NCBI GenBank assembly: GCA_026982075.1
Contig: JALSHU010000091.1
Coordinates: 1 to 45,096 of the forward strand
Length of the DNA stretch: 45,096 nucleotides
Direction: 5' to 3'
Origin: Sulfurovum sp.
GTDB lineage: Bacteria > Campylobacterota > Campylobacteria > Campylobacterales > Sulfurovaceae
Shown: in pieces, positions 32,551-38,264 of the stretch
How the letters are laid out: each line of letters begins with the position of its first letter
Numbering within the stretch: position 1 is the first letter of the stretch
Position numbers and translations under genes: made by a program
The notes under the pieces: model-generated
The model's input: the letters and a program-made list of their open reading frames with translations, nothing else
Database searches by the model: none
Told to the model about the DNA's origin: nothing

Positions 32551-33345
32551 ATGGAACACTTTGTCTGGAACATTGACCCCACTCTTTTACATCTAGGTCC
32601 ACTTGAACTTCGCTGGTACGGACTTCTTTTTGTAGGTTCCTTTTTTCTTGGTGCACTCATACTTAACTGGATATATAAACGTGAAGCTAAAGATCCCGTT
32701 GTGATTGAAACATTACTCATATATCTTATGGTTGGTGCAGTCATTGGCTCTCGTTTGGTTCATACTCTTTTTTATGAACCCGAGTTCTATCTTTCTCATC
32801 CTTTAGAAATACTTTACGTGTGGAAAGGTGGCTTAGCAAGCCATGGTGGCTTGCTGGGCGTACTTATTGCTTTATATATCTTTGCAAAACGTTACAATGA
32901 ATCGTATATGTGGATTGTCTCACGTGTGGCTATACCTGGCGCCTTGACTGCTGCATTTGTTCGTTTTGGAAACCTTTTCAACTCTGAGATTCTTGGTAAA
33001 CCCAGTGAAGTACCATGGGCTATTGTTTTTGAACGTATAGACCTTATACCACGTCATCCTGTTCAGCTCTATGAAGCCTTTGCTTATTTGACAATACTAC
33101 TGTTTCTTGTAACGTTATATCGTAAAGTCACCCCTGAGTTTGCAACAAGAATACTTCCTGGAACATTTTTGTTTTTAGTTTTTACTGCACGTTTCTTCAT
33201 AGAATATACGAAAACAAGACAGGCTGCCTATACCACGGATCTTCCTTTTAGTACAGGTCAACTGTTAAGCATACCTTTTATTTTAATTGGTATAGTGTGG
33301 ATAATATGGGCATTCATAAATAAGAATAAGGCAAGCCAAAAATAA
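32551..33345 (+). CDS. lgt: Prolipoprotein diacylglyceryl transferase
   Basis: Lgt attaches diacylglycerol from phosphatidylglycerol to the lipobox cysteine of prelipoproteins in the inner membrane. The 264-residue protein has multiple membrane helices and the family motifs LRWYGLLFVGSF, WKGGLASHGGLLG (catalytic histidine region), and the signature RFGNLFNSEILGKPS, followed by RHPVQLYEA. It precedes the activase gene by 9 bases, so the two are probably cotranscribed. Lipoproteins such as the one at 19342 would be its substrates. Confidence 0.96.
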   Translation: MEHFVWNIDPTLLHLGPLELRWYGLLFVGSFFLGALILNWIYKREAKDPVVIETLLIYLMVGAVIGSRLVHTLFYEPEFYLSHPLEILYVWKGGLASHGGLLGVLIALYIFAKRYNESYMWIVSRVAIPGALTAAFVRFGNLFNSEILGKPSEVPWAIVFERIDLIPRHPVQLYEAFAYLTILLFLVTLYRKVTPEFATRILPGTFLFLVFTARFFIEYTKTRQAAYTTDLPFSTGQLLSIPFILIGIVWIIWAFINKNKASQK

Positions 33346-33354
33346 AGGTCTTTT

Positions 33355-36300
33355 ATGACTCAAATAATGATAGAAAAATATGCTTTGGGCATAGATATCG
33401 GTTCTACCACAGTCAAATATGTAGTATGTGACAGTCACTTCAATATTTGTGCTAAAGCCTATACTGCACACGATACCAAACAAGCACCTACCCTTTTACG
33501 TCTTTTAGAAGAGCTCTCCCAAACACACCCCGATATTTACAACAAAATAGATAAAGTCTATATCACAGGTTCTGGTGCATCGCGCATTGCTCCAACTATC
33601 AATGCCCGTTTTGTACAAGAGGTAAATGCAGTCGTACTCGCTGTTGAGCATAACCACCCAGATGTAAGAGCCGTGGTGGAACTTGGTGGACAAGATGCCA
33701 AAATCATCCACTTTAAACAAAGCGAAGATGGGAAAAAATCAGTCCTCACCTCTATGAATGACAAGTGTGCTTCAGGTACAGGCGCTACCATAGAAAAATG
33801 TACTATGAAAGTTGGTATGGAAAGTGCTGATGTGCAAAAACTTACATTTCAAACGGATAAACTTCACCATGTTGCAGCAAAATGTGGTGTCTTTGCAGAA
33901 ACAGACATTGTAAATCTTGTCAAAACTTCTGTACCCAGTGACGAAATCATGAACTCCTTGGCTGACGCCATTGTCATGCAAAATCTCACAGTGCTCACAA
34001 GAGGAAATACACTTATGCCAAATGTGTTACTCTTAGGTGGTCCCAATACCTACTTACCTTTTTTACAAGAGTGTTGGCGTATGCGTATTGCAGAAATATG
34101 GGATGAACGTGGTGTACCCTATGATAAAAATAACATCAACGCACTTATCAATGTACCTGAAAATGCGCAATATTATGCTGCCCTAGGTGCAGTTATATTT
34201 GGTGAAGGTGAAGCAAACAACGATAAACCTTTTACTGGACTCATACAACTAAAAACCATGGTCGACACTGGAGGTATGACACAAAATGACAACAATGATA
34301 CGCCACTTGTCAGTAGCCCAGAAGAGCTACAAGCCTTTAAAGATGCCTATACCATCAAACCTTTTATACCACCTGTACTTACAGAGAAAACAACTTGTTT
34401 TTTAGGGATTGATGGGGGATCTACTTCTTCAAAAGCAGTACTTTGTGATGAAGAGGGTGAACTGCTTTTAAAAGTCTATCAACTCTCAGGTGGTAACCCG
34501 ATAGAAGACACCTTGGAACTCTTAGAAAAAATCAAAGCACAAGACCCTCATGGGCACTATGATATCAAAGGACTAGGCGTCACAGGATATGCCGCTGAAG
34601 TTTTAGGTGGTGCCTTGAATGCAGATGCAAATATCATTGAGACTATCGCTCATATGCGGTCTGCACAAAAAGCTTTTGGAGAGAGTATCAATGTCATTTG
34701 TGACATAGGTGGACAGGATATTAAAGTGCTTTTTATGGAAAATGGTATGATGAAAAATTTCCGTCTTTCCAACCAATGTTCTGCAGGTAATGGCACACTT
34801 CTCCAAAGTATGGCAAAACAATTTGGGGTTCCAGTAGAAGAATTTGCAGATGTTGCCTTTGCTGCCAAACAGGCTCCTTTGTTTAACTATGGGTGTGCAG
34901 TGTTTTTAGATACCGACAGAGTCAACTTCCAAAAAGAAGGATACAGTAAAGAAGAACTTTTTGCAGGTATCTCAAAAGTGCTTCCTAAAAATGTTTGGCA
35001 ATACGTAGTACAAGCACCTAACTTGGCCGCATTTGGTGACCACTTTGTGCTTCAAGGGGGTACGCAATACAACCAAGCAGCACTCAAAGCACAAGTAGAT
35101 TATATTAAAGACAAGGTCCCACATGCCATAGTAGATGTGCATCCTCACCCTGGTGAAGCAGGTGCCTATGGTGCAGCGATAGAAGCAAAAGATGTAGTAA
35201 GACAACGTGGATATGCGACTTTTGTCGGTATGGATGAAGCATTACAAATGACATATACTTCAAGAACAGATGAGAGCACACGATGTACCTTTTGTAGTAT
35301 CAACTGCTCACGTACGTTTATTGATACGCAAACACCTTCTTCCAAATCGGTACGTTACATTGCAGGATTTTCCTGTGAAGAAGGTACTGTTGAATCCCAT
35401 GAAGCCTTGAAACTTCTTAAAGACTCAAGAAAAGATTTGCAAAAAAATATCCCTAATCTTGTCAAAAAAGAGTCGTATGCTCTGTTTGCGCCTACCTATG
35501 ATTTAGAAGAAAAACCAACGGCCTTCACGCAAATAGAAGAACAAAAAGTCAAAGTGACACTAGGGGGATGGGGTCCAACCTTACGTAAAAAAGTGAGTAG
35601 AAGCTTTCAGCTAAGTTCAGCAGAACAGTTAGCCCACAGAAAAGAGATCAAAGTAGCCATACCCAAAGTACTTAATGTGTATTCCCTTGCACCATTTCTG
35701 CGCACTTATCTTGAAGCCTTAGACCTTAGTCCTATGAATATTGTATTTTCAGGATTTTCCAATGAAGACATGTTCCTAGAGGGTGCTAAGTATGGTTCTG
35801 TTGACTCATGTTACCCTGCAAAAGTTGCACAATCCCATGTCTATTCTTTACTTTTTGACAAGAAATATGTTCGTAAAAACTTTGACCATATTTGGTTTCC
35901 TGCAGTCACCGAATTACCAGGCTATGTCAAACATACGATGGGGCAAACTTCATGTCCCATTGTCTCAGGAACCCCTAAAGTGGTTTACTCAGCATTTACA
36001 AAAGAAAAAAACCTTTTTGAAATCGCCCAAGTAAATTACGTAGAAAATGCCCTGAATTTTGATAACCCAAATTTACTCAAAAAACAACTTTTTTCTACAT
36101 GGAAGGATCTCTTACACATGAGTGAAGATGAAAATAACTGGGCGGTGGAACAGGCTTGGAAAGCCCTAGCTAAAAATGATGCAGACATCATGAAAGAAGG
36201 AAGAGAAATACTTGACAATGCTGTCAAAAATAATGAAGTGGTCATATTGTTACTTGCTCGTCCATATCATTCTGACCCTGGTATGAATCATGAAGTATTA

Positions 36301-36762
36301 GATGAATTTCAGTCTTTAGGGTTTAAAACCCTCTCTATGCGTGCCATCCCTAAAGATACTAAGTATCTCTCTCAATATTTTAAACATGATATCTCTCACG
36401 GTTCAGTAGAGTCTGCCTATGACATTCGTGATGTTTGGGCAGAAAATTTCTCTACAAACTCTGCCCAAAAAGTCTGGGCGGCCAAGTTTGCCGCCCGCCA
36501 TCCAAATGTAGCTGTACTTGACCTAAGTAGTTTCAAATGTGGACATGATGCACCTACATATGCTATTATAGACAAGATACTTGGTGCTTCACGTACCCCT
36601 CACCTTACCTTGCATGATATAGATGCAAACAAACCAGGTGGGTCCATAAAAATACGGGTCAAAACTTTTGCTTACACACTCGATCAGTATAAACAAACAC
36701 TGATAAACCCTTATAAAAAGGAGCATATCAGCCTCACACAAAAAGAAGGAGTAACAGTATGA
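33355..36762 (+). CDS. Tandem BadF/BcrA-type acyl-CoA dehydratase activase fused to DUF2229 domain
   Basis: This 1135-residue protein has two actin-like ATPase activase modules. Module one (about 9-285) has GIDIGSTTVK and the cluster cysteines C138 (NDKCASGTG) and C177 (AAKCGVFAETD). Module two (about 347-610) has GIDGGSTSSK, C475 (NQCSAGNG) and C514 (NYGCAVFLDTD). In known activases each subunit of a homodimer gives two cysteines to one shared [4Fe-4S] cluster, so this fusion could form the pair within one chain. Residues 644-651 hold C-x2-C-x3-C, and a DUF2229/HgdB-like region follows (CYPAK at C819, C867, LLARPYH near 967, C1062). It overlaps the next gene by 4 bases. The substrate is unknown. 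Confidence 0.9.
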   Translation: MTQIMIEKYALGIDIGSTTVKYVVCDSHFNICAKAYTAHDTKQAPTLLRLLEELSQTHPDIYNKIDKVYITGSGASRIAPTINARFVQEVNAVVLAVEHNHPDVRAVVELGGQDAKIIHFKQSEDGKKSVLTSMNDKCASGTGATIEKCTMKVGMESADVQKLTFQTDKLHHVAAKCGVFAETDIVNLVKTSVPSDEIMNSLADAIVMQNLTVLTRGNTLMPNVLLLGGPNTYLPFLQECWRMRIAEIWDERGVPYDKNNINALINVPENAQYYAALGAVIFGEGEANNDKPFTGLIQLKTMVDTGGMTQNDNNDTPLVSSPEELQAFKDAYTIKPFIPPVLTEKTTCFLGIDGGSTSSKAVLCDEEGELLLKVYQLSGGNPIEDTLELLEKIKAQDPHGHYDIKGLGVTGYAAEVLGGALNADANIIETIAHMRSAQKAFGESINVICDIGGQDIKVLFMENGMMKNFRLSNQCSAGNGTLLQSMAKQFGVPVEEFADVAFAAKQAPLFNYGCAVFLDTDRVNFQKEGYSKEELFAGISKVLPKNVWQYVVQAPNLAAFGDHFVLQGGTQYNQAALKAQVDYIKDKVPHAIVDVHPHPGEAGAYGAAIEAKDVVRQRGYATFVGMDEALQMTYTSRTDESTRCTFCSINCSRTFIDTQTPSSKSVRYIAGFSCEEGTVESHEALKLLKDSRKDLQKNIPNLVKKESYALFAPTYDLEEKPTAFTQIEEQKVKVTLGGWGPTLRKKVSRSFQLSSAEQLAHRKEIKVAIPKVLNVYSLAPFLRTYLEALDLSPMNIVFSGFSNEDMFLEGAKYGSVDSCYPAKVAQSHVYSLLFDKKYVRKNFDHIWFPAVTELPGYVKHTMGQTSCPIVSGTPKVVYSAFTKEKNLFEIAQVNYVENALNFDNPNLLKKQLFSTWKDLLHMSEDENNWAVEQAWKALAKNDADIMKEGREILDNAVKNNEVVILLLARPYHSDPGMNHEVLDEFQSLGFKTLSMRAIPKDTKYLSQYFKHDISHGSVESAYDIRDVWAENFSTNSAQKVWAAKFAARHPNVAVLDLSSFKCGHDAPTYAIIDKILGASRTPHLTLHDIDANKPGGSIKIRVKTFAYTLDQYKQTLINPYKKEHISLTQKEGVTV

Positions 36763-38264
36763 GTATCACATGTAGTACAGTTAAAATGACTGATAAAAAT
36801 GGTGACCTTAACTTTATCAACCAAGAAGCAACACAATGGCAAGAGTCCCCAAAGGAGACTATAGAATATGCCCCTAAAGACGAAACTATTATGCTTGTAG
36901 GTGGTCTTACCATTTTACAAGACAAACTTATAGAAACAGCACTACATTCCATAGGTGAAAATTTTGTTGCACTTCCAAACCCTGATTTTGAATCCTTTCA
37001 AACAGGTAAAGCTTTTGGGAATCGAGGACAATGTAATCCTACTTATTTTACAGTTGGGAATCTTGTCAAGTATTTGCAAAACCTACGTGATAAAGAAGGG
37101 ATGTCATCTGAAGAGATAGTCCAAAAATATGTCTTTGTAACTGCTGGAGGATGTGGGCCATGCAGATTTGGTATGTATATTACGGAATATAAAAAAGCCT
37201 TGCGTGATGCAGGTTTTGATGGCTTACGTATCACCAGTTTTGAACATGATAAAGGTATCTTTCAAAGCGAAGATGATGAAGAGAGCATCCTTAATCTCAG
37301 TCCAAAATTTTTCATTACACTCATTAAGGCTGTCATCATTGGTGACATCATGAATATTTTAGGCTATAAGATGCGCCCTTACGAAGTACATGCTGGTGAT
37401 GTAGATAAAGCCATGGAAGCGTGTAGAATACAAATTTCACATGCTTTTATGGCAAAAAAGAATCTCACAAAAACACTATGGTATTGCCGAAATATTTTAG
37501 AAAAAGTAGAGCTTAACCGCTTACAACCCAAAGCCAAAGTGATGGTAATGGGTGAATTTTGGGCAGCGATGACAGAAGGCGATGGGAACTATAATTTACA
37601 TAGATTTTTAGAAGCTGAAGGTGCAGAGTGTATCCCCCAACCTATCATCAACCGTTTGTTACTCAGTATTTGGGAGGCAGAACGCAGAGTACAGAAAAAA
37701 GAAGAACTTGCAACCCAAACAGAAAAAAAAGTAGATTTTTCAAATGTCAAGAGTCGCATACTTATTAAACTAGCCAAAATAGCTGTCAAAGCACACTTTG
37801 GTATGTATGCAAAAGCCATAGGTCTACATGATTATGCAATTCCAAATATGGAAAAGTTGGCTGCAATCAGTGAAGAATATTATACGCTTGATTGTGAAGG
37901 AGGAGAAGGGCACTTAGAAGTGGCACACCTCATAGAATCAGTCAAAGAGAACCTTTCACACCTTACCATCTCAGTGAAACCTTTTGGATGCATGCCATCT
38001 TCAGCTGTAAGTGATGGCGTACAGTCTTTGGTAACAAGCCGTTTTCCTTCAGCAAACTTTTTAGCCATAGAAACATCAGGAGAAGGTGCAGCAAACTTTT
38101 ATAGCCGTGTACAAATGGCTCTGTTTAAAGCAAAACAGTCAGCAAAAGAAGAGTTTGAATCACTGACTATACCTGAGACTATGCCTAAAAAAATACACAA
38201 CTATCTTTACCAACCTCATAGTAATAAGGCTGGCTCAGCTGCAAAACTGGTAGCGAGCCTATAA
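36759..38264 (+). CDS. 2-hydroxyacyl-CoA dehydratase-like component (C-terminal half of the DUF2229 system)
   Basis: This 501-residue protein has the cysteine motifs of the HgdB/DUF2229-associated family: GQCNPTYF (C92), GGCGPCRFGMY (C132, C135) and KPFGCMPSS (C411), which are candidate Fe-S ligands. Related large proteins often carry activase modules and this part in one chain; here the gene is split with an ATGA overlap, implying tight coupling and a complex. Family enzymes use ATP-driven single-electron transfer for dehydration of 2-hydroxyacyl-CoA, benzoyl-CoA reduction, or double-cubane-cluster chemistry. No CoA transferase or dehydratase alpha/beta pair is adjacent, so the reaction is unknown. 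Its end overlaps the convergent biotin carboxylase gene by 6 bases. Confidence 0.88.
   Translation: MSITCSTVKMTDKNGDLNFINQEATQWQESPKETIEYAPKDETIMLVGGLTILQDKLIETALHSIGENFVALPNPDFESFQTGKAFGNRGQCNPTYFTVGNLVKYLQNLRDKEGMSSEEIVQKYVFVTAGGCGPCRFGMYITEYKKALRDAGFDGLRITSFEHDKGIFQSEDDEESILNLSPKFFITLIKAVIIGDIMNILGYKMRPYEVHAGDVDKAMEACRIQISHAFMAKKNLTKTLWYCRNILEKVELNRLQPKAKVMVMGEFWAAMTEGDGNYNLHRFLEAEGAECIPQPIINRLLLSIWEAERRVQKKEELATQTEKKVDFSNVKSRILIKLAKIAVKAHFGMYAKAIGLHDYAIPNMEKLAAISEEYYTLDCEGGEGHLEVAHLIESVKENLSHLTISVKPFGCMPSSAVSDGVQSLVTSRFPSANFLAIETSGEGAANFYSRVQMALFKAKQSAKEEFESLTIPETMPKKIHNYLYQPHSNKAGSAAKLVASL

Follow-up and report, generated by a model that had tools for sequence, protein, structure and literature searches.

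We analyzed a 45,096-nucleotide stretch of Sulfurovum sp. DNA (contig JALSHU010000091.1 of assembly GCA_026982075.1; hereafter the window) in which two adjoining open reading frames, ORF1 and ORF2, encode a candidate ATP-driven reductase. Window coordinates are given on the + strand throughout. ORF1 (33355..36762; 1135 aa) is conserved across the genus, and its domain matches give the order activase, activase, four-cysteine linker and DUF2229 half. ORF2 (36759..38264; 501 aa) is predicted to fold as a second half of the kind that makes up 2-hydroxyacyl-CoA dehydratases (HAD) and benzoyl-CoA reductases (BCR). Both lie exactly where an initial annotation, made from the sequence alone, had placed them. 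The stop of ORF1 and the start of ORF2 share the letters ATGA (36759..36762), a 4-bp overlap that points to translational coupling; this -4 spacing is kept in about half of the relatives, with others reaching up to +193. Strong purifying selection acts on both genes, with a ratio of nonsynonymous (dN) to synonymous (dS) rates of about 0.03 to 0.08 for pairs with estimable dS. With dN (0.01 to 0.24) much smaller than dS (0.3 to saturation), ORF1 and ORF2 are real, maintained genes.

The N-terminal part of ORF1 holds two activase modules. A hidden Markov model search of the kind proposed in the initial annotation places two families over their cut-offs in ORF1, BcrAD_BadFG (the BadF/BadG/BcrA/BcrD ATPase; 226 bits, cut-off 31.5) and DUF2229 (PF09989; 150 bits, cut-off 29.4), and finds no HGD-D (PF06050) match in the window proteins. 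The activase models PF01869 and TIGR00241 score 226 and 211 bits, both over their curated cut-offs. Module 1 (residues 9 to 290; 33379..34224) aligns to MbdP, a subunit of 3-methylbenzoyl-CoA reductase, with C138 (33766-33768) and C177 (33883-33885) on its cluster cysteines. Module 2 (residues 348 to 616; 34396..35202) aligns to 4eht and 1hux, and C475 (34777-34779) and C514 (34894-34896) fall on the cluster cysteines of HadI and HgdC, so that each module has both cysteines, as first proposed. The predicted model of module 2 matches the folds of the HadI, HgdC and MbdQ activases at Z 24.5 to 26.0.

To place the modules, we built a tree from 29 first and 29 second modules, ordinary activases and the activase of a three-gene system on a plasmid of Monoglobus pectinilyticus (WP_102365312, WP_102365311 and WP_102365310). 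The 29 first modules group together, as do the 29 second modules (supports 100/99 and 100/98), and within each group the Sulfurovum sequences make up one side. The modules thus appear to have arisen by one duplication before Sulfurovum and the other lineages split. The Monoglobus activase branches with the tandem family and not with ordinary activases, although long branches meet there and the exact joins are unsure. Like Sulfurovum, Monoglobus has a DUF2229 half, an ORF2-like half and an activase ending in a CxxCxxxC...C motif, here in separate genes; unlike Sulfurovum, it has a single unduplicated activase and lacks most of the RPYHxDPxxNH signature described below. Given one old duplication and this single free activase, the tandem most simply, and probably, replaces an activase dimer within one chain. 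This indirectly supports the intramolecular dimer suggested initially, in which the two modules would pair with each other.

A linker motif that the initial annotation had not singled out, CxxCxxxC-x22-C (C644, C647, C651 and C674; 35284..35376), follows module 2. It is conserved throughout an alignment of 47 Sulfurovum-type pairs and 20 distant homologues (n = 67), to which the conservation counts below refer. The motif is absent from all seven ordinary activases compared (of HAD, BCR and double-cubane-cluster protein [DCCP] type). It is a probable additional [4Fe-4S] site, with the metal type predicted. Across the alignment, 14 cysteines are invariant (67/67): two in each activase module (C138, C177, C475 and C514), the four of the linker, three in the DUF2229 half (C819, C867 and C1062) and three in ORF2 (C92, C135 and C411). 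The order activase, activase, CxxCxxxC...C, DUF2229 and HAD-like half, together with these cysteines, defines the tandem-activase/DUF2229 family, and the Sulfurovum pair shows all of it.

The DUF2229 half (residues 766 to 1117; 35650..36705) contains the conserved cysteines that the initial annotation had noticed there. It also carries a candidate acid/base site, the RPYHxDPxxNH signature (residues 969 to 979; 36259..36291), found in all 67 rows. K823, H828, Y971, H972, D974 and H979 are likewise invariant. ORF2 contains the three motifs described initially: CNPTYF with C92 (37032), GGCGPC with C132 (37152) and C135 (37161), and GCMPS with C411 (37989).

Several lines of evidence relate these two halves to each other. 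The DUF2229 and ORF2 family profiles align (hhalign probability 92, E 5e-7) in a register that puts C819 on C92 and C867 on C135. Pfam DUF2229 matches half of the ORF2-family members (9/18), and each half of the three-gene system matches both DUF2229 and HGD-D (P0003, with PF09989 and HGD-D, included), the HGD-D scores being 37.5 and 28.4 bits at a cut-off of 28.4. On this evidence, and on the ORF2 fold, the DUF2229 region (to residue 1117) and ORF2 are paralogous HAD/BCR-like halves and most likely make up the electron acceptor. The initial annotation had called ORF2 a coupled second protein; as a paralogue of the DUF2229 half and its likely partner in the acceptor, it is more than that.

Searches of Pfam, NCBIfam and solved-structure sequences returned nothing for ORF2, and neither its sequence alone nor its profile gave usable matches to Protein Data Bank (PDB) sequences. 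Its AlphaFold model has a predicted local distance difference test score of 80 and a predicted template modeling score of 0.83. The ten best PDB fold matches of this model are all class I benzoyl-CoA reductases (BCR-I), HAD or DCCP, over residues ~37 to 468, with a best Z of 10.3 and Foldseek E values from 1e-4 to 6e-2; the next, unrelated fold reaches Z 6.0 over part of the model. With chains assigned to subunits by chain length and molecule name, ORF2 resembles the smaller HadBC subunit, MbdN, DCCP and BzdN (Z 8.9 to 10.3) more than the catalytic subunits HadB (Z 6.7) and BzdO (Z 6.3). The best matches are thus the relay subunits HadC, BzdN and MbdN, together with DCCP. Electron relay is therefore the probable role of ORF2, and catalysis that of the DUF2229 half.

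Each acceptor half contributes three cysteines (C819/C867/C1062 and C92/C135/C411), which at the level of cysteines is what HAD subunits have. In BzdNO, BzdN binds the double cubane through six cysteines (Cys36/73/100/263/293/327), and the other subunit binds the catalytic [4Fe-4S]-OH2 through three, Cys95, Cys128 and Cys380 (PMC11971306). The three invariant cysteines of each half follow a comparable order (92, 135 and 411 in ORF2). Three invariant cysteines per half, where a double cubane needs six, suggest that each half suits one site-differentiated [4Fe-4S] cluster, as in 2-hydroxyacyl-CoA dehydratase. A double cubane was rejected on the same count, as even the Sulfurovum-type ORF2 has at most four cysteines at cluster positions.

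A search of the source genome found no HGD-D gene and no activases beyond the ORF1 modules. For both reasons, the activase modules most likely have the DUF2229/ORF2 pair as their own acceptor. An external HGD-D acceptor was considered and rejected, since the genome has none. Such a partner is also not needed, because the ORF1 modules are the only activases and HGD-D is rare in the genus (present in 4 of the 40 good Sulfurovum genomes, whereas DUF2229 is in 31).

These features suggest that ORF1 and ORF2 form a one-electron reductase that is driven by ATP and self-contained, with the layout of 2-hydroxyacyl-CoA dehydratases and class I benzoyl-CoA reductases; we put the probability of this reading at roughly 0.6. 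It agrees with the initial proposal that the two proteins belong to the HgdC/BcrAD superfamily and use ATP to transfer electrons; the cofactors and ATPase activity are predicted. In the proposed mechanism, the two activase modules would form a pair inside ORF1, and each would supply two cysteines to a single [4Fe-4S] cluster shared by the two. Reduced ferredoxin, for which two POR_N-type 2-oxoacid:ferredoxin-oxidoreductase subunit genes in the genome are possible sources, would donate one electron to this cluster, perhaps via a second [4Fe-4S] cluster in the linker. ATP binding and hydrolysis, as known for the superfamily, would push this electron onto the partner, a pseudo-symmetric pair of the DUF2229 half and ORF2 with one predicted [4Fe-4S] cluster each. 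From ORF2, the relay, the electron would reach the DUF2229 half at its open cluster, where K823, H828, H972, D974 and H979 may act as proton donors while a small molecule undergoes radical reduction or elimination.

Some observations weigh against this reading. The cluster loops are the low-confidence parts of the predicted models, and hhalign of either half to a seven-protein HGD-D alignment is weak, too weak to use. Further, the Sulfurovum form and a few others (50/67) have a fourth cysteine, C132, which makes up a CxxC with C135; it could close the open site of the Sulfurovum-type ORF2, although a closed site could also fit a relay role.

The architecture is not confined to Sulfurovum. Among 78 genomes of the genus, 54 carry a DUF2229 gene, usually in one copy, and 7 carry HGD-D; the nearest relatives of the window's pair are Sulfurovum, with 98% identity to ORF1 and 95% to the part of ORF2 present in L042. 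DUF2229 occurs in 30 of 298 Campylobacterota genomes and is patchy outside Sulfurovum. It takes three shapes there: one chain of 1430 to 1490 aa, a split of ~1000+430 aa and the Sulfurovum-type split of 1135+501 aa. Records from Fusobacteriota, Bacillota and Actinomycetota contain the first two shapes as well, under the names "acyl-CoA dehydratase activase" or "2-hydroxyacyl-CoA dehydratase." The laboratory strain Lactococcus lactis likewise has a DUF2229 match. The proteins of Haliovirga, Listeria and Collinsella (one chain of ~1450 to 1590 aa) and of Fusobacterium (975 + 404 aa) share the domain order, the 14 invariant cysteines and RPYHxDPxxNH with the Sulfurovum form. In contrast, the Sulfurovum form is only ~27% identical to such fused or split relatives, is encoded by two genes and has a 501-aa ORF2 with an N-terminal extension and inserts. 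It also has GGCGPC where most of these homologues have GGGC, and N479 in module 2 where they have a cysteine. The split tandem-activase/DUF2229 arrangement is thus an existing, annotated architecture that is uncharacterized in the sources searched. Judged by its sequence, the two-gene form represents a deep variant, the most divergent branch among those compared, and has so far been found in Sulfurovum and near relatives. A literature search, mostly without subscription papers, found no paper on the function of DUF2229, COG3580 or COG3581; a paper on selenium co-occurrence mentions that Slackia has HGD-D subunits and an activase close to selenium genes, with no link to the present system.

The neighborhood of ORF1-ORF2 consists of housekeeping genes only (trpA, lgt, panB, ruvB and accC), with no CoA ligase or transferase. 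Other Campylobacterota loci of the family, whose translations were read by eye, are flanked by unrelated housekeeping genes, and neighborhoods vary between lineages. The initial annotation had left the target open for lack of pathway genes nearby, and this still holds. With housekeeping contexts and no CoA-ester pathway nearby, a general metabolite or repair reaction is likelier than amino-acid fermentation or aromatic degradation. These last two are unlikely since no such genes adjoin and the neighborhoods are changing sets of housekeeping genes.

The same neighborhoods would suit a maturase or reactivase, which would spend ATP on a second protein to reduce or rebuild its metal site, with the DUF2229/ORF2 pair relaying electrons to that client instead of turning over a small molecule itself. 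Corrinoid reductive activases use ATP in this way. Two further points favor it: the activases reach scores on the methanogenesis-marker-15 model that fall short of the cut-off, and fermenters, host-associated bacteria and chemolithotrophs alike carry the family. However, the acceptor halves retain HAD/BCR architecture and the invariant polar residues that halves with their own chemistry should have, and no client gene travels with ORF1-ORF2. We consider this the strongest of the alternatives, though an improbable one.

The database names imply an ordinary enzyme with a CoA ester as substrate, either a 2-hydroxyacyl-CoA dehydratase or a benzoyl-CoA reductase, and the shared fold family agrees with this. 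HadI and HadBC (4eht, 3o3m; 2-hydroxyisocaproyl-CoA dehydratase) share the activase fold and cluster cysteines with ORF1, and the smaller HadBC subunit is the best fold match of ORF2, with likewise three cysteines per acceptor half. Nevertheless, HadI is a separate activator without the four-cysteine linker, HadBC has no detectable sequence match to ORF2, and identity to solved dehydratase subunits is only ~10 to 13%. BzdNO and MbdONPQ (8s02, 9gai), class I benzoyl-CoA reductases, match in fold and also combine two paralogous acceptor subunits with two activase subunits, but the six-cysteine [8Fe-9S] cluster of BzdN (PMC11971306) is excluded here by cysteine count. The NCBIfam BCR equivalogs fall far below their cut-offs (BcrA, 117 versus 578 bits; BcrD, 90 versus 313 bits). 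Given also the lack of HGD-D in the genome and of a CoA ligase or transferase context, an ordinary enzyme of either type is unlikely.

Still less probable is a DCCP-type reductase, reducing small molecules such as acetylene, azide or hydrazine at an [8Fe-9S] cluster. DCCP with DCCP-R (6eno, 7yyl, 7yzm) matches the folds of ORF2 and the activases, and all three entries are among the best ORF2 fold matches. DCCP, unlike ORF1/ORF2, is a homodimer with a double cubane in each monomer and a separate activase, and the cluster takes six cysteines within one subunit (PMC11971306), against three invariant per half here. The double-cubane link drawn in the initial annotation is thus not supported. Least probable of all is an ATP-assisted sulfur-transfer or desulfuration enzyme comparable to TudS: Sulfurovum is a sulfur-metabolizing genus, but TudS has one domain and no activase, and the family also occurs in hosts without sulfur lithotrophy (Listeria, Collinsella and Fusobacterium). 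TudS itself is a superfamily member with a [4Fe-5S] site (PMC11971306).

Few systems use ATP to obtain electrons of extremely low potential: nitrogenase-like enzymes, BCR-I, HAD and DCCP. ORF1/ORF2 would add a complete and compact ATP-driven device, strongly conserved in a chemolithotroph genus and also present in host-associated bacteria, for a family whose reaction is unassigned in the sources searched. Tentatively, and well short of even odds, we propose that it belongs to an uncharacterized class of ATP-driven super-reductases spanning at least four phyla. Such enzymes would have their own catalytic signature (K823, H828 and RPYHxDPxxNH) at a three-cysteine [4Fe-4S] cluster and carry out radical chemistry at very low potential, with a common metabolite as substrate and not the CoA ester of a catabolic pathway; in Sulfurovum, they would operate in sulfur-oxidizing autotrophs with low-potential ferredoxin. 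Its anatomy makes the system testable, with a single-copy two-gene operon, no rival activase, and named relay and catalytic residues.

Directly upstream of ORF1 is lgt (32551..33345), which is possibly cotranscribed with ORF1-ORF2. The order trpA-lgt-ORF1-ORF2 is kept in relatives down to ~55% identity, a synteny that may reflect slow rearrangement alone. Deep-branching relatives have a second, lgt-like gene (44 to 48% identity to the window lgt) on the downstream side of the ORF2 homologue (L041:10405-11187, L047:10449-11226, L040:8619-9399 and L045:5710-6483), and in some of them two lgt genes flank the pair. The ORF2 homologue at L045:4273-5709 (57% identity) has no adjoining ORF1; ahead of it lies a 727-aa ORF whose start is signal-like, an arrangement due to a rearrangement or an assembly join.

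A scan of viral contigs for fused relatives foldable as a single chain found none. Records labeled as phage do contain a fused tandem-activase gene (L132 and L133 [OR846627, LT985590], PQ520273, OR848391 and OR846824), most likely as bacterial DNA. In two other Campylobacterota, L105 (G105:C1:340112-340534) and L094 (G289:C13:172747-173388), the DUF2229 gene is interrupted by internal stops and is probably a decaying copy. Thermus composti, a control genome, has a DUF2229 match and no PF01869 match, possibly a DUF2229 half working without an activase. Finally, a Sulfurovum mangrovi plasmid (L110:3574-8804) encodes a classic HGD-D protein with a single activase, adjoining two 4Fe-4S binding proteins, TonB receptors and an RND transporter; this is a different, second ATP-driven system in the genus.

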